A program made the position numbers and the translations under genes. From Paenibacillaceae bacterium (lineage in GTDB: Bacteria; Bacillota; Clostridia; Lachnospirales; Lachnospiraceae), in contig SVDU01000007.1 of assembly GCA_015057705.1 (NCBI GenBank), positions 1 to 64,000 on the forward strand: a DNA stretch of 64,000 nucleotides, read 5' to 3'. Below are positions 21,805 to 48,267 of the stretch, in pieces; positions within the stretch are counted from its first letter, which is position 1; each line of letters starts with the position of its first letter. The notes below the pieces were generated by a model. The model had not been told where the DNA came from and did no database searches. It saw only the letters and a program-made list of their open reading frames with translations.

Positions 21805-21832
21805 TTGACATTCTTCAGGATCCATGTATAAT
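21805..21832 (+). promoter_or_regulatory. glnK-amt promoter
   Basis: TTGACA (21805-21810), a 16-bp spacer and TATAAT (21827-21832), a near-perfect sigma-A promoter. Transcription should start near 21839. There is no sigma-54 site, so nitrogen control must come from elsewhere, probably the leader. Confidence 0.87.
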
Positions 21833-21843
21833 GTTGTTATAAC

Positions 21844-21880
21844 GAACGAGGGCGTTCCATAAGCGGAACTGCTCTTTTTT
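21844..21880 (+). promoter_or_regulatory. glnK leader: terminator with overlapping antiterminator-like hairpin
   Basis: The terminator stem (21848-21858 with 21865-21876, one bulged T at 21870, loop ATAAGC) is followed by T tract through 21880. A competing hairpin GAAC-GAGGGC-GTTC (21844-21857) has a six-base loop and uses the terminator's 5' arm, so the two exclude each other. This is the arrangement of ANTAR-protein antitermination sites. The loop does not fully match the usual A1/G4 rule (it is G1, G4). The transcript would have to pass this site to reach glnK. Confidence 0.7.
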
Positions 21881-21909: not shown

Positions 21910-22248
21910 ATGAAAAAATTGGAAATTATTATCAAGCCGGAAAAGCTTGAAAGCCTGAAAGCAGTACTGGAAGGCTGTAAAGTTAACGGGCTTATGATCA
22001 GCAATGTCATGGGTTATGGAAATCAGAAAGGCTATACTCAGATGTACCGTGGTACCAAGTATAATGTAAATCTGCTCCCTAAAGTTAAAGTTGAGACAGT
22101 CGTACCAAAAGAGCTGGCTGATCCAATTATTGACGCAGTCGTGGAAGAAATTAATACCGGTACATTTGGAGATGGTAAAATATTCGTCTACGATGTTCAG
22201 GATGCAGTACGAATCCGAACTGGTGAACACGGCCGGGAGGCTTTGTAG
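21910..22248 (+). CDS. glnK: PII nitrogen regulatory protein
   Basis: Trimeric PII signal protein, 112 aa. It senses ATP/ADP and 2-oxoglutarate and blocks the adjacent ammonium channel. The T-loop has Gln39 and Tyr51 (KYNVNLLPK), the residue uridylylated in proteobacteria. The B-loop TGTFGDGKIFV (83-93) and Arg101/Arg103 for nucleotide binding are present. Pairing with amt identifies it as the GlnK type. The ribosome site AAGGAGG is strong. A leader terminator lies upstream, and a second hairpin terminator between glnK and amt should give more glnK than amt mRNA. Confidence 0.95.
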   Translation: MKKLEIIIKPEKLESLKAVLEGCKVNGLMISNVMGYGNQKGYTQMYRGTKYNVNLLPKVKVETVVPKELADPIIDAVVEEINTGTFGDGKIFVYDVQDAVRIRTGEHGREAL

Positions 22249-22386: not shown

Positions 22387-23598
22387 ATGGAAAATACTAC
22401 TTTGTTACTAAACATTATCTGGACTATGCTGGGTGCAATTTTGGTCTACTTTATGCAGGCAGGTTTCGCATTGGTTGAGACTGGTTTTACAAGGGCAAAA
22501 AACGCAGGAAATATCTGTATGAAGAATATGATGGACTTTGTCCTTGGTTCCCTATTCTTCTTCATTTTAGGTTTTCCCCTTATGTTCGGAAACAATATCG
22601 GAGGAATCCTTGGCGGATCCGGATTTTTTAATCCCTATTCTCTTGCAGATTCCGACGGAATATTCAATGGACTTCCCATTGCCGTATTTATGATCTTTCA
22701 TACCGTATTCTGTGCAACCGCTGCAACAATCGTTTCTGGAGCAATGGCTGAACGTACTAAATTTTCTTCCTATTTAATCTATTCCGCATGCATCAGCGTT
22801 TTCATCTATCCCATTACCGGTCACTGGATCTGGGGCGGCGGCTGGCTGTCAAGTATTGGTTTCCATGATTTCGCAGGTTCTACAGCCGTTCATATGGTAG
22901 GCGGTATATGCGCTCTGGTAGGAGCAAAGATCGTTGGACCCCGTATTGGAAAATATAATGAGGACGGAACTCCCAATGCAATTCCAGGGCACAACATTCC
23001 TTTAGGCGTTCTTGGTGTATTTATACTCTGGTTCTGCTGGTTTGGTTTTAACTGCGGATCTACAACGGCTGCTACTACAACGGTAGGTGATATTGCCATG
23101 ACTACAAACCTGGCTGCAGCTGCTTCCACTTTGGTAACACTGTTGTTCACCTGGAAACGTTATGGTAAACCGGATGTCTCCATGACCTTAAATGGTTCCT
23201 TAGCTGGTCTGGTTGCTATTACAGCAGGCTGTGATGTAGTAACTCCTTATGAAGCAATGATTATTGGTGCCATTGCAGGTTTCGTAGTGGTTCTCGCGAT
23301 TGAATTCATTGATAAAGTTGTTAAGATCGATGATCCGGTGGGCGCAGTTGGTGTTCATGGCTGCTGCGGTCTCCTGGGCACCCTTCTTACCGGTGTATTC
23401 GGCGAAGGTGTCAGCTTCCTGCCTCAGTTAATCGGCGTTGGATCTGTAGTGGCTTATGCCGGAGTCATGGCAGCTATCATTTTTACGGTTATTAAAAAGA
23501 CCATTGGATTAAGAGTATCCGATCAGGAGCAGTTGGATGGTCTGGATATCCACGAACACGGGATGTCGGCTTATACCGGCTTCCGTATGGATAAATAA
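22387..23598 (+). CDS. amt: Ammonium transporter
   Basis: Amt/MEP/Rh family channel, 403 aa, 11 predicted membrane helices. The family signature is at 161-176 (DFAGSTAVHMVGGICA) with the pore His169. The second pore histidine is in GVHGCCGLLGTL. The outer Phe gate region (FMIFHTVFCATAA) is present. The C-terminal tail is short and cytoplasmic, the PII docking site. The ribosome site is AGGAGG. The gene lies downstream of glnK in one unit, separated by a strong terminator-like hairpin. Confidence 0.96.
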   Translation: MENTTLLLNIIWTMLGAILVYFMQAGFALVETGFTRAKNAGNICMKNMMDFVLGSLFFFILGFPLMFGNNIGGILGGSGFFNPYSLADSDGIFNGLPIAVFMIFHTVFCATAATIVSGAMAERTKFSSYLIYSACISVFIYPITGHWIWGGGWLSSIGFHDFAGSTAVHMVGGICALVGAKIVGPRIGKYNEDGTPNAIPGHNIPLGVLGVFILWFCWFGFNCGSTTAATTTVGDIAMTTNLAAAASTLVTLLFTWKRYGKPDVSMTLNGSLAGLVAITAGCDVVTPYEAMIIGAIAGFVVVLAIEFIDKVVKIDDPVGAVGVHGCCGLLGTLLTGVFGEGVSFLPQLIGVGSVVAYAGVMAAIIFTVIKKTIGLRVSDQEQLDGLDIHEHGMSAYTGFRMDK

Positions 23599-43466: not shown

Positions 43467-45584
43467 TTATACTTCAAAAATCAGATCGCCGTAGCTTGGA
43501 ATTGGCCATAAATCCTTATCTACAATCATTTCCAGTTTATCTGCCGGCTCACGAAGAGCTGCCATTGCAGGTACTACTTCACTGTGGTAAGCAGCTGCCT
43601 GTTCTTTGTTTTCTCCAATTGCCGCACATTTGTCAGTAATATCAATGAGAGCGGAAAGAGCTACCTTCATGTCAGAAAGATATGCGCTCACTTCTGTGAG
43701 AAGCTCTTCCTGTACACTGGTATCAGCTGACGGACATGCTGACTTAACCTTTCCTAAAGAATCTGCAAGAACGGTTGTATATTTCACAACTGCCGGAATA
43801 AGCTGCTTTCCTGCCATATCAATCATGGTTCTTGCTTCAATATTAATGGCTTTTGAATAGGTCTCATATTCGATCTCAACACGGGACTCTAACTCAGCCT
43901 TAGTAAATACCTTGAATGATTCAAACATGCTGATGGATTTTTCTTTTGTAAGTGCAGGGATTGCATCAACCATTGCTTTGATGTTTGGAAGTCCTCTTCT
44001 CTCTGCTTCTTCTACCCATGCATCAGAATAACCATTGCCGTTAAAGATTACTCTCCTATGTGCTGCCAGCTGCTCTTTAATCATGTCATGTACAGCCGTA
44101 TCAAAGTCATCTGCCTTCTCAAGTATATCTGCCGCTTCCTTAAATGCCTCTGCTGTAATGGTATTTAATACAACGTTAGGTGATGAGATGGAATCAGAAG
44201 AACCTACCATACGGAATTCAAATTTATTGCCGGTGAATGCAAATGGTGAAGTTCTATTTCTGTCAGTTGCATCTTTAAATAAATCTGGCAGAGTCTTAAC
44301 GCCTGTCTTTAAGGTACCGCCTGACTTGGAGTGAGTTGCTTCACCTGTGCTGCAAAGCTGATCCACTACGTCCTCAAGCTGTTCGCCGATGAATACGGAA
44401 ATTATTGCGGGAGGTGCCTCGTTTGCACCAAGTCTGTGATCGTTTCCAACATCTGCTGCAGACTGACGAAGAAGATCGGCATGCCTGTCAACTGCCTTTA
44501 AGATACAGGATAATACCAGTAAGAACTGAATGTTCTCATGTGGTGTTTCGCCTGGATTTAATAAATTAATACCGTCGTCACTGGTTAAGGACCAGTTGTT
44601 ATGCTTACCGGAACCATTTACGCCTGCAAATGGCTTCTCATGAAGCAGACAGTTTAATCCGTGACGGCCTGCAACCTTCTTTAAGGTTTCCATAACAATA
44701 TGATTGTGGTCAACTGCCACATTGGCCTGCTCATAGATTGGTGCCAGCTCATGCTGAGCTGGTGCAACCTCATTATGCTGGGTCTTTGCAGGTACGCCAA
44801 GCTTCCAGAGTTCTTCATTTACTTCCTTCATATACGCTGCAATTCTTTCACGAATGGAACCAAAGTAATGGTCTTCCATTTCCTGTCCCTTAGGAGGCAT
44901 TGCACCGAATAAGGTTCTTCCTGCGTAAATTAAGTCTTTTCTCTGTAAATATTTTTCATGATCAACAATAAAATATTCCTGTTCCGGTCCAACGGAAGGA
45001 GTTACTCTCTTTGAAGTGGTGTTGCCAAACAGTCTTAAGATTCTTAAAGCCTGCTCATCAACCGCTTCCATTGATCTTAAGAGAGGAGTTTTTTTATCGA
45101 GCGCTTCTCCTGTATAAGAACAGAAAGCAGTAGGAATACAAAGTGTAACACCAATTGCATCTTCTCTTAAAAATGCAGGTGAGGTACAATCCCATGCAGT
45201 ATAACCTCTTGCTTCAAAGGTTGCTCTTAATCCACCGGAAGGGAAGGAAGAGGCATCTGGTTCGCCTTTTACCAGCTCTTTACCGGAAAACTCCATGATT
45301 ACCTTACCTTCTGATGTGGGAGAGGAGATGAAGGAGTCATGCTTCTCGGCAGTAATGCCTGTCAGCGGCTGGAACCAGTGTGTATAGTGAGTTGCGCCTC
45401 TCTCAATTGCCCAATCCTTCATTGCATGAGCTACTACATCTGCAATGGAAGGATCCAGTTCTGCACCGTCTTCAATTGTTTTCTTTAACTTCTTGAAAAC
45501 GCTTTTAGGCAGACGCTCTCTCATAACGGTCTCGTTAAATACATTCTTACCGAACAGCTCGGCTACATTCACAACTTCGCTCAT
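43467..45584 (-). CDS. glnN: Glutamine synthetase, type III
   Basis: ATP-dependent condensation of glutamate with ammonia, 705 aa; the length and the GlnN-specific N-terminus ([20 protein letters not shown]) mark the large type III enzyme. Catalytic motifs are present: [30 protein letters not shown], and [15 protein letters not shown], then [20 protein letters not shown]. The C-terminal 150 residues are helical and type III specific. It is likely regulated at the RNA level by a leader hairpin pair (45681-45719) that shares features with the glnK leader. The ribosome site is GAGAGGATGG. Confidence 0.96.
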
Positions 45585-45680
45585 AAATTTTCCATCCTCT
45601 CATATTTAATTTCTACTTAATAAAATTAAGTCTGATTGTTATTTTAGTCTCCTCATTATCTGAATATGCGCATAAATCAG

Positions 45681-45719
45681 AAAAGGCGCCCTCCTATCAT
45701 AAGGAGAACGCCATTGTTC
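45681..45719 (-). promoter_or_regulatory. glnN leader / fba-glnN intergenic terminator with ANTAR-like hairpin
   Basis: On the minus strand, hairpin 1 is GAAC-AATGGC-GTTC (45719-45706), a six-base loop with A at position 1 and G at 4. This matches the ANTAR recognition rule. It overlaps the 5' arm of an 11-bp terminator stem (GGCGTTCTCCT, 45712-45702, with AGGAGGGCGCC, 45695-45685, two G-U pairs) followed by TTTT. The hairpins are mutually exclusive. A possible promoter (TTGATT, 17 bp, TATTTT at 45726-45731) is very close upstream, so the leader may instead be fed by read-through from fba, or this may simply be the fba terminator. Confidence 0.6.
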
Positions 45720-45789
45720 TTAATTAAAATAAACCATTTTCCTAAAAAAATCAAGTACTTTTTTAAAAAATATTTTTTTTAGAAGGTTT

Positions 45790-46653
45790 TTAAGCTTTTC
45801 CAACAGAACCGAATAACTCCATCTTCTCTTTTACTGTGGCTTTGATGGCATCTGTTCCTGGTGCAAGAAGCTTACGAGGATCAAATCCCTTACCCTCTAA
45901 ATCTTTGCCTGCTTCAATATACTTACGGGTAGCTTCTGCAAAGGTAAGCTGGCACTCTGTATTCACATTGATCTTTGCTACGCCAAGGCTGATAGCTTTT
46001 TTAATCTGATCTTCCGGAATACCTGTCCCACCATGAAGAACAAGTGGCATGCTGCCTACTTTATCTTTTATAGCTGCCAGAGTATCAAAGCTTAAACCTG
46101 CCCAGTTTGCCGGATATTTTCCATGAATGTTGCCAATTCCTGCTGCCAGCATGGTTACGCCTAAGTCAGCAACCTGCTTGCACTCATCAGGATCTGCACA
46201 CTCACCCATACCAACTACGCCGTCTTCCTCGCCGCCGATGGAACCAACTTCTGCTTCAATGGAAAGGCCTTTTTCATTACAAACCTTTACAAGCTCAGTT
46301 GTCTTTTCCACATTCTCTGCGATTGGATAATGGGAACCATCAAACATGATGGAAGAAAAACCTGCCTCGATGCACTTATAACAGCCATCATAAGAACCGT
46401 GATCCAGATGAAGTGCCACTGGAACACTGATCTTTAATTCCTCTATCATGGCTTTTACCATAGCTGTTACAGTTTTATAACCTGTCATGTATTTGCCAGC
46501 GCCTTCGGAAACTCCCAGAATAACCGGGGATTTCAGTTCTTCGGCTGTCAGTAAAACAGCCTTTGTCCACTCAAGGTTGTTGATGTTGAACTGTCCAACT
46601 GCGTATTTTCCATCTCTTGCTTTTTCAAGCATCTCTTTTGCTGAAACTAACAT
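45790..46653 (-). CDS. fba: Fructose-bisphosphate aldolase, class II
   Basis: Zinc-dependent glycolytic/gluconeogenic aldolase, 287 aa. The catalytic Asp84 and zinc His85 lie in ALHLDHGSYDG. Other zinc-binding His residues are in the segments AAGIGNIHGKYP and LVLHGGTGIP, and the NVNTECQLTFAEATRKYI loop binds phosphate. The ATG at 46653 (MLVSAKEM) follows GGAGG by eight bases; the ATG five codons earlier contains that ribosome site and is rejected. It has its own sigma-A promoter and stands between thrC and glnN. Confidence 0.96.
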   Translation of the reverse strand: MLVSAKEMLEKARDGKYAVGQFNINNLEWTKAVLLTAEELKSPVILGVSEGAGKYMTGYKTVTAMVKAMIEELKISVPVALHLDHGSYDGCYKCIEAGFSSIMFDGSHYPIAENVEKTTELVKVCNEKGLSIEAEVGSIGGEEDGVVGMGECADPDECKQVADLGVTMLAAGIGNIHGKYPANWAGLSFDTLAAIKDKVGSMPLVLHGGTGIPEDQIKKAISLGVAKINVNTECQLTFAEATRKYIEAGKDLEGKGFDPRKLLAPGTDAIKATVKEKMELFGSVGKA

Positions 46654-46693
46654 ATCACAGACCTCCATATTATTTATTGTCTTACATTTTTTT

Positions 46694-46722
46694 ATTATAA
46701 CCTATTTTAACTTATTTGGAAA
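46694..46722 (-). promoter_or_regulatory. fba promoter
   Basis: On the minus strand, TTTCCA (46717-46722), a 17-bp spacer and TATAAT (46694-46699). Confidence 0.65.
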
Positions 46723-46782
46723 GATTATTTTTTCAAAGATTGTTTTTTTTATAACAAAGTTACATTTACTTTCAAAACTATT

Positions 46783-48267
46783 TTAAGCTAAAAAGCTCAT
46801 AACTGCCTCTTTCATTTTATCCCTTTCACACTCACTCTGGTGAAGGACAGGAGCCGTGCGGATTTCTTCAACTGCCTGGGGAATATCGGTTCCTGATACG
46901 TCTGATAAACGGTCAATGATCTTAAATTCATCTTCCCCCGACTTCTTTCCTTCCAGAGCCTCTAAAACACTTCCGGAAAACTTATATGGGCTGGCAGTGG
47001 AGGCAATCACTGTTTTTGTCTCATCCGCCGTCTCTTTCTTATACTGATGATAAACAGACGCTGCCACTCCTGTATGGGTATCAATCAGATAACCGGTACT
47101 GTCAAACAGCTCCTTAATGGTTGTCTGGTTGTCTGTTTCCTCTGCAAATCCACCCACAAAATCTTCCATGAACTTTTTCATGGCTGGTGTGACGGTATAG
47201 CTTCCTGTTTCACTAAGTTCCTTCATCAGCCCTGCATTTACCGCTGCATCGCTGCCGGTGCTTAAATAGATGAGACGTTCTAAATTACTGGAGATCAGGA
47301 TATCCATGGATGGGGAACTGGTGAGAATAAACTCTCTGTTTCTGTCATAGGTTCCTGACTGAAAGAAATCATATAGAACTTTATTCTCATTGGAAGCGCA
47401 GATTAATTTGTCAATAGGAGCTCCCATCTGCTTGGCTATATAAGCAGCCAGAATGTTTCCAAAGTTACCTGTGGGAACTGCCACATTGATTCGTTCTCCA
47501 TCAGATATCTCTCCGCCTGACAGCAGCTTCCCATATGCATATACATAATAAACCACCTGAGGAACCAGTCTTCCTATATTGATTGAATTCGCGGAAGAAA
47601 GCTGATATCCCTTCTCTTCCAATTGAGCAGCAAATTCCTGATCGCCAAAGATCTTTTTCACTCCAGTCTGGGCATCGTCAAAATTCCCATGTATGGCTGC
47701 TACGTGGGTATTCTTCCCTTTTTGTGTTAACATCTGAAGTTCCTGGACACGGCTCACTCCGTTTTTAGGATAGAAAACAATAATCTCCGTTCCTTCCACA
47801 TCGGCAAATCCGGCCATGGCTGCTTTCCCCGTATCTCCGGAGGTTGCTGTCAGTATCACGATCTTATTCTTTACCTGATTCTTTTTAGCTGCAACGGTCA
47901 TCAGGTGGGGTAGTATGGAAAGTGCCATATCTTTAAACGCAATGGTGCTGCCATGGTATAATTCCAGATAGTATGCACCGTCCGCTTTGGCAAGAGGGGC
48001 AATTTCTTCCGTATCAAACTTGCTGTCATATGCACGGTTAATACAGCTTTTTAATTCCTCCTCTGTGTAATCGGTGAGAAACAGCTTCATGACTTCATAA
48101 GCAGTTTCCTGATATGTCAATGTAGAAAGTTCTTTCATGGTCTTGTCTAGCTTCGGGATAAAGCTTGGCATAAACAACCCGCCATCTGCTGCCAGCCCTT
48201 TTAAAATTGCCTGGGAAGCCGTCACATTGGCTTCTTTGCCTCTGGTACTCTGATAGGATAATTCCAT
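46783..48267 (-). CDS. thrC: Threonine synthase
   Basis: PLP enzyme converting O-phosphohomoserine to threonine, 494 aa. The PLP lysine is Lys112 in HGSTIAFKDMAL. The phosphate loop SGDTGKAAMAGF and the long-type C-terminal extension mark the roughly 490-residue class found in E. coli and Clostridia. It is alone rather than in a hom-thrB operon, with its own promoter. The leader is short and I see no T-box. Confidence 0.96.
   Translation of the reverse strand: MELSYQSTRGKEANVTASQAILKGLAADGGLFMPSFIPKLDKTMKELSTLTYQETAYEVMKLFLTDYTEEELKSCINRAYDSKFDTEEIAPLAKADGAYYLELYHGSTIAFKDMALSILPHLMTVAAKKNQVKNKIVILTATSGDTGKAAMAGFADVEGTEIIVFYPKNGVSRVQELQMLTQKGKNTHVAAIHGNFDDAQTGVKKIFGDQEFAAQLEEKGYQLSSANSINIGRLVPQVVYYVYAYGKLLSGGEISDGERINVAVPTGNFGNILAAYIAKQMGAPIDKLICASNENKVLYDFFQSGTYDRNREFILTSSPSMDILISSNLERLIYLSTGSDAAVNAGLMKELSETGSYTVTPAMKKFMEDFVGGFAEETDNQTTIKELFDSTGYLIDTHTGVAASVYHQYKKETADETKTVIASTASPYKFSGSVLEALEGKKSGEDEFKIIDRLSDVSGTDIPQAVEEIRTAPVLHQSECERDKMKEAVMSFLA

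Follow-up and report, generated by a model that had tools for sequence, protein, structure and literature searches.

A probable single-hexaloop ANTAR-type attenuator in the leader of the glutamine synthetase gene glnN, with counterparts before other nitrogen genes of Lachnospiraceae

The leader of glnN, which encodes a type III glutamine synthetase, is probably a transcription attenuator of the ANTAR type with one hexaloop, placed right where the transcript begins. The gene was analysed in a window of 64,000 nucleotides, i.e. positions 1 to 64,000 of contig SVDU01000007.1 from a genome of the Lachnospiraceae. The element before glnN, a short hairpin overlapping an intrinsic terminator, is more than a chance arrangement and is not merely the terminator of the upstream gene fba. 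From sequence comparison we infer the other parts of the scheme, namely the start site, binding by a NitR-like protein, antitermination and nitrogen shortage as the signal. That nitrogen genes can be under ANTAR control is not new in itself, as the accessible part of PMC3369931 makes clear. Our literature search, which covered titles and the starts of abstracts in a collection with few subscription journals, found no description of single-hexaloop ANTAR attenuators before glutamine synthetase genes in Lachnospiraceae.

The glnN leader and its counterpart before glnK

The glnN gene (43467..45584, minus strand) codes for a protein of 705 aa that matches the GSIII_N profile with 276.5 bits; the nearest named GlnN among the matches listed is that of Hungatella effluvii (91%). 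Its upstream neighbour on the same strand is fba (45790..46668, minus strand), coding for a class II fructose-bisphosphate aldolase. Between the two genes, folding and covariation identify a hexaloop hairpin similar to a P2 antiterminator, AGAAC-AATGGC-GTTCT (45705..45720, minus strand). Its core GAAC-AATGGC-GTTC occupies 45719-45706, and the stem has 5 bp if the flanking A-U pair 45720/45705 is counted. The 3' half of this hairpin is at the same time the 5' arm of an intrinsic terminator of 11 bp (45685..45712, minus strand), which reads GGCGTTCTCCT-TATGAT-AGGAGGGCGCC-TTTTCTG and has a U-rich tail at 45684-45678; the two structures are mutually exclusive. By itself the hexaloop hairpin folds with -3.2 kcal/mol and the terminator, including its tail, with -20.2 kcal/mol (shuffle mean -7.7, z -5.2), so the terminator should win unless the hairpin is helped. 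The preliminary description of this DNA had reported the overlap with an 11-bp terminator stem in front of glnN and a position about 70 bases after fba, and both are borne out: the 14-mer begins 70 bases past the fba stop codon.

A -35 hexamer, TTGATT (45749..45754, minus strand), which is kept across the genus, and a -10 hexamer, TATTTT (45726..45731, minus strand), are predicted upstream of the hairpin with a spacer of 17 nt. Together they match the consensus at 8 of 12 positions, which is weak and falls below the listing of our 9-of-12 promoter scan. By the usual rule a transcript starts 7 nt after the -10, and the glnN transcript is thus predicted to start at about 45719, on the initial G of the 14-mer. 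Another promoter-like arrangement, TTAAGA-16-TATGAT, lies inside the terminator; it was rejected because it is not conserved within the genus; the second hexamer is located in the variable terminator loop. Directly after the terminator, at 45660-45680 (minus strand), many leaders of the genus share the sequence CTGATTTATGCGCATATTCAG, which has a palindromic core.

The sister element precedes glnK (21910..22248, plus strand), which was recognised by profile search as coding for a PII signal protein of 112 aa and is followed by an ORF of 403 aa that we named amtB-like by eye (22387..23598, plus strand). The predicted glnK promoter, TTGACA-16-TATAAT (21805..21832, plus strand), matches the consensus at all 12 of 12 positions. 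The hairpin GAAC-GAGGGC-GTTC (21844..21857, plus strand) follows 11 nt after the -10 and overlaps a terminator (whole element 21841..21879, plus strand), which agrees with the common hairpin plan seen earlier in both leaders. In folding, the glnK loop with its G at position 1 can close to a tetraloop.

The 14-mer GAACNNNGGCGTTC has two matches in the 4.53-Mb genome, those of the glnN and glnK leaders, and none in the backwards control. Both matches lie in the window, where at least two were reached by 7 of 100 shuffles; this control allowed one mismatch and is weak, so that it is the genome-wide and comparative counts that carry the argument. Relaxing the search to a 12-mer with one mismatch allowed gives no enrichment over the genome (110 matches vs 170 in the backwards control), and by eye none of the five exact 12-mers outside the window has a matching terminator. 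The genome also has two more PII genes (C2:143164-143499 and C14:60591-60923), each behind an amt-like gene as judged by eye; the element stands before one of the three, the window glnK.

Distribution of the element, its genes and an ANTAR protein

The covariance model R1 was trained on 37 leader sequences, both window leaders included. In its own genome it reports the glnN element (45681..45722, minus strand; 48.1 bits, E 1.5e-8) and the glnK element (38.6 bits, E 4.5e-6), both members of its training set, and the next match has an E-value of 0.43. At E<=0.05, R1 matches occur in 71 of 116 relatives (111 matches in total, training sequences among them), and at E<=0.001 in 24 of 291 genomes drawn over the class, the own genome and one congener being among the 24.

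Homologues of GlnN at E<=1e-100 are found in 99 of the 116 related genomes. Altogether 66 glnN leaders were read, leaving out one (L013) whose contig ends before the leader, and 48 of them contain the motif G[AG][AG]C-[AG]A.G[AG][CT]-GT[CT]C. One of the 18 motif-free leaders (L009, genome G016) had been excised at the wrong place, and R1 places the element before the glnN of that genome. Over 80 named glnN loci (360 kb), some of whose genomes may have fed R1, the model gave 34 matches at E<=0.05: in 32 of the 80 loci a sense-strand match lies within about 225 nt before glnN, and the remaining two matches are one downstream of glnN and one antisense. A pattern independent of R1, requiring the hairpin and an overlapping terminator, was present in 29 of the 77 upstream regions that remained once three clipped loci had been set aside, once on the reverse strand and 0-1 times per set in 20 shuffled sets. 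Shuffles for this test, as for the promoter/P1 and strict P1 tests, were first-order Markov samples, which keep dinucleotides on average only.

In relatives the element with its terminator precedes glnN, glnA-nitR, glnK-amtB, gltB and pyrG. Behind the 53 fetched R1 hits (of 111), the first large gene is glnA in 14 cases, amtB in 5, gltB in 3, glnK in 2, pyrG in 2 and a gene for a glutamate-type dehydrogenase in 1; in four of the five amtB cases this gene lies about 470-560 nt down, a gap that leaves room for a glnK. A class II amidotransferase is encoded behind one fetched hit, and the proteins at L290 and L295 look similar by eye. Additionally, a circularly permuted ATP-grasp gene (PF14403) stands behind the element in four genomes (L276, L279, L307, L311), and its products may belong to nitrogen or glutamine metabolism. 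Nine of the fetched stretches ended before any gene could be seen; the coordinates place several of them before glnN. For about ten of the 53 hits the gene that follows is not obviously linked to nitrogen, and weak hits before recJ, an aldo/keto reductase and others were left out of the targets. Of the 20 elements fetched from other orders, 12 stand before a glutamine synthetase gene, namely glnN (9) or glnA (3). Overall, the target genes are the glutamine/ammonium set.

One ANTAR protein was found in the genome. It has 182 aa, is encoded directly behind a second, type I glutamine synthetase gene (glnA), and is here called NitR-like, following what we take to be the clostridial naming. Its ANTAR domain (PF03861) scores 60.4 bits against a Pfam cut-off of 27.3 and is the sole report at E<=0.001; unlike EutV, the protein has no Pfam receiver domain before it. 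A diverged pseudo-receiver is possible; the putative antiterminator 1s8n, which is among the PDB matches together with EutV (6wsh), AmiR (1qo0) and a nitrate regulatory protein (4akk), aligns over most of its length. In a hand alignment, with the numbering shifted by two as appeared to fit, M172 is retained in NitR, and the bulk of the EutV contacts examined (K143, K147, Y164, R168, N173, R175, R177) are not. The motif EAH[RK]Y[IL]QK-x-SM[DN]SG is common to the six NitR proteins that we read; EAHRRIQKQSM[DE]KG occurs in three ANTAR proteins from other families.

By coordinates, 12 relatives have the element (E<=0.05) at the head of their glnA-nitR operon. In four genomes of other families (G084, G091, G104, G105; loci L302, L300, L303 and L301) it lies between glnN and a more distantly related ANTAR gene directly upstream of glnN, all on one strand. 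Of 55 genomes with the element (E<=0.001), 52 have NitR (E<=1e-10), counting a partial match in G043; the exceptions are G047, which is 60% complete, and G065 and G084, which have weaker ANTAR matches. Fisher's test for this co-occurrence, with kinship ignored, gives 7.8e-8 when the window genus is counted once; restricted to the family it gives a weak 0.052, and for the other families 0.011 if every ANTAR-like match at E<=1e-3 is accepted.

In the own glnA-nitR leader no element was found by R1, and no Rfam match up to E 1. By eye, this leader (L094, about 940-1183, contig C18) has a promoter-like TTGACA...TATATT followed by two terminator-like hairpins, GGGTGG...CCACCC-TTTTT and AAAGAGTCCC...GGGGCTCTTT, and no RANGRY hexaloop, so that the regulator's own operon may use another attenuator.

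The preliminary description had proposed one RNA-binding regulator for ammonium uptake and assimilation. The sequences point to shared control at the RNA level, and targets and linkage make the ANTAR protein the likely binder; the classical ANTAR rule as first stated was not supported. That some other protein or a small ligand binds the attenuator, or that the terminated RNA of about 40 nt is a decoy, is unlikely in view of the linkage to ANTAR genes, the nitrogen target genes, the doubled hexaloop in other orders (see below) and a loop and closing pair that fit the ANTAR preferences published in the accessible parts of PMC8934654 and PMC7496416. It is true that in 20 of 72 genomes with NitR the element is not detected at E<=1e-3, that G047 has elements and NitR was not found in it, and that EutX, a decoy RNA with ANTAR hexaloops, has been described (PMC8934654, accessible part). 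Rfam, however, offered no other candidate: nothing in the window reached a gathering threshold, and each of 27 sub-threshold matches in the leader stayed under its cut-off. The PyrR site (28.3 vs a threshold of 54) and the PyrG leader (17.8 vs 65) both fail, and reiterative control of the PyrG type was rejected because the predicted transcript does not start with a run of G.

Number of hexaloops and comparison with known systems

In the published model, as the accessible parts of the sources give it, an ANTAR dimer binds a pair of hexaloops, P1 and P2, that both have A at position 1 and G at position 4; formation of P2 keeps the terminator from forming, and neither hexaloop is dispensable (PMC3369931). 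For EutV, antitermination needs both hexaloops and a fitting linker (PMC3369931, PMC8934654). The EutV-RNA structure of 2022, again from the accessible text, shows that EutV binds a single hexaloop with G4 as the sole base-specific contact and that the dimer cannot touch both hexaloops at once; it redefines the minimal binding motif as one hexaloop, retains P1 as a recruitment hairpin for antitermination, and leaves open the need for two hexaloops and the role of single ones (PMC8934654). The closing pair preferred by NasR is C:G and the preferred loop bases are A1 and G4; it binds less well to a hairpin standing alone (PMC7496416, accessible part).

In 51 of the 53 fetched R1 hits the loop reads C-RANGRY-G, R1 having been trained on such loops; the consensus R-A-N-G-R-Y closed by C:G is ANTAR-like. 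Both window hairpins have the C:G closing pair, as do 51 of 51 R1 hits, where the pattern demanded it, and both carry a six-base loop with G4 on a short stem (AATGGC in glnN, GAGGGC in glnK). Position 1 is A in 55 and G in 23 of 78 collected elements (the pattern permitted A or G), and G in 16 of 23 glnN leaders read in the genus. Since the loop classes were built into the search pattern, the loop counts of the collected set show only the choice within each class. Six further elements had failed the pairing or tail filter and were kept out of the promoter-distance, loop, slid-partner and P1 counts. The ANTAR loop rule, to which the leader had been said to conform, fits the A1 loop of glnN; the glnK loop breaks A1, and the second hexaloop is absent.

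This absence was examined with a strict search for P1, a G/C-closed hexaloop with a purine at position 1, A2 and G4 in the 60 nt upstream. It found none before 64 elements from the family, a set that includes the two window leaders (chance mean 0.6), 1 before 14 from the order's other families, and 5 before 20 from other orders (chance 0.17; two of 22 loci, L348 and L351, were dropped for want of the loop pattern). The frequencies in the family and in other orders differ with p = 0.0005. All five P1-bearing elements are glnN leaders, e.g. AAGC-AATGGC-GCTT, then 14 nt, then GGAC-AATGGT-GTTC, so that the search sees P1 where it is present; moreover, the doubled loop points to an ANTAR binder. 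EutB loci, examined as a source of dual-hexaloop positive controls, yielded none; the controls are these loci from other orders. A looser A1/G4 search did no better than shuffles (6 of 78 vs 6.0).

Promoters with a score of at least 8 were predicted for 59 of the 78 elements, and 42 of these 59 lie 4-15 nt before the hairpin. Median distances from the -10 to the hairpin in the collected set are 11 nt for glnK, 8 for glnA and 10 for amtB, which leaves no room for P1. For glnN the median is 16.5 (5-41; 20 of 36 scored), and in other genera the hairpin of some glnN leaders is preceded by 20-40 nt, a stretch that in part of them holds other hairpins and in none a second hexaloop. It could be supposed that these stretches, together with a start site that is itself predicted, conceal an ordinary dual-hexaloop element whose second loop lies upstream of the predicted start and is reached by read-through from fba or from an unseen promoter; the outcome of both P1 searches makes this decidedly unlikely.

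Two of the leaders from other families with an upstream ANTAR gene (G091 and G104) show an upstream C:G-closed hexaloop lacking G4 (AGGAC-AACTAA-GTCCT and AGGAC-GACAAA-GTCCT), possibly a decayed or diverged P1. Single hexaloops overlapping a terminator, with no P1 seen, were also observed in the glnN leaders of Peptococcaceae UBA5318 (L252; GAGTC-AATGAT-GACTC) and Desulfosporosinus sp. I2 (L258; GGAGC-AATGAC-GCTCT), and the form may therefore not be confined to Lachnospiraceae.

Among described systems, the EutVW-controlled eut leaders of Enterococcus faecalis are similar in the short stem, the hexaloop with G4, the AC...GU apex, the overlap with the 5' arm of an intrinsic terminator and the use of an ANTAR protein (PMC3369931, PMC8934654, accessible parts). 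The glnN leader differs from them in having one hexaloop instead of two, in a hairpin predicted at or near +1, and in allowing A or G at position 1. ANTAR targets were predicted in 2012 at genes for PII, ammonium transporter, and glutamate and glutamine synthases, in Desulfotomaculum; these are the same kind of genes with the same attenuation logic, but that search, as far as the accessible part of the paper describes it, sought a dual hairpin (PMC3369931). NasR/nasF is alike in the C:G-closed hexaloop and the A1/G4 preference of NasR (PMC7496416, accessible part), whereas the nasF and AmiR/amiE leaders, in the available accounts, have two hairpins and respond to nitrate or amide signals. The RAT antiterminators of SacY/BglG also consist of one antiterminator hairpin overlapping a terminator (PMC3369931, accessible part), but they are 29-30 nt long and belong to an unrelated protein family.

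Stem covariation, the fba terminator and a proposed mode of action

A covariance comparison had been suggested as a check on the hairpin, and the stem does covary. In the 53 fetched R1 hits, of which 2 with no loop pattern were dropped from this count, 201 of 204 stem cells are paired with no pairing filter applied; 51 of the 204 are the C:G closing pair demanded by the pattern, and R1 itself contains the four pairs. Double changes number 20, against a mean of 4.3 and a maximum of 9 in 1000 shuffles. Compensatory variants of the stem include GGAC/GTCC, AAAC/GTTT, AAGC/GCTT, GAGC/GCTC, GACC/GGTC and TAAC/GTTA. In a slid-partner control with 55 distinct elements, which had been chosen with a pairing filter, 88.4% of the true partners pair vs at most 53.8% of the slid ones.

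These data bear on the alternative raised at the outset, that the structure is only the fba terminator and the small hairpin an accident of its 5' flank. The terminator stem lies about 77 nt past the fba stop codon on the same strand, and, as the only terminator that a scan of 45500-46800 listed, it may terminate fba transcripts as well. The 5' arm GAAC, however, is outside the terminator stem and yet covaries with GTTC, and a promoter-like sequence is kept across the genus between fba and the hairpin. Moreover, the same element recurs before glnA, glnK-amtB, gltB, pyrG and the glutamate-type dehydrogenase gene, and in four genomes where fba (by eye) precedes a glnN lacking the element (G043, G029, G058, G047) a plain terminator closely follows fba. 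We therefore regard a mere fba terminator as highly improbable. A DNA operator at +1, with GAACNNNGGCGTTC bound by a repressor or activator, is scarcely credible: an inverted repeat does stand near the promoters, at a similar distance in glnK, glnA and amtB, but the promoter distance ranges from 4 to 41 nt while the terminator overlap is kept, the loop is conserved one-sidedly and the stem covaries, all of which attenuation fits better.

For the single-hexaloop attenuator, the following mode of action is proposed. RNA polymerase would start at about 45719 and at once make the GAAC-AATGGC-GTTC hairpin. By default this weak hairpin would yield to the far stronger terminator, and transcription would end after about 40 nt, short of glnN. 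When nitrogen is scarce, a state perhaps sensed by way of glutamine synthetase or PII, a NitR-like ANTAR protein would grip the hexaloop and keep the GTTC strand out of the terminator, allowing read-through into glnN. As the terminator would be completed within about 25 further bases, NitR would have to act fast. The glnK-amtB leader would work in the same mode, so that uptake and assimilation of ammonium would rise together.

A wider reading is plausible but more tentative, and we would stop a little short of favouring it: Lachnospiraceae may have a nitrogen-assimilation regulon of one-hexaloop ANTAR attenuators near +1 that has dispensed with P1, in which a distinct, phosphorylation-independent ANTAR subclass, marked by the EAH[RK]Y[IL]QK-x-SM[DN]SG motif, acts on the first-transcribed hairpin and is perhaps gated by glutamine synthetase or PII. 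The receiver of AmiR, too, is not known to be phosphorylated. If true, this would provide a concrete candidate nitrogen regulator, a target list and a binding site for many gut Lachnospiraceae. The family offers many natural one-hexaloop candidates, and other orders have two-hexaloop cousins before the same gene, which makes the need for two hexaloops directly testable.

Another observation concerns one genus of another order, in which six similar elements with the hairpin GAGC-AAAGGC-GCTC (L332, L333, L335, L346, L347, L349) have a strong-looking promoter and no large ORF starting within 700 nt; they are candidates for a short RNA or decoy.
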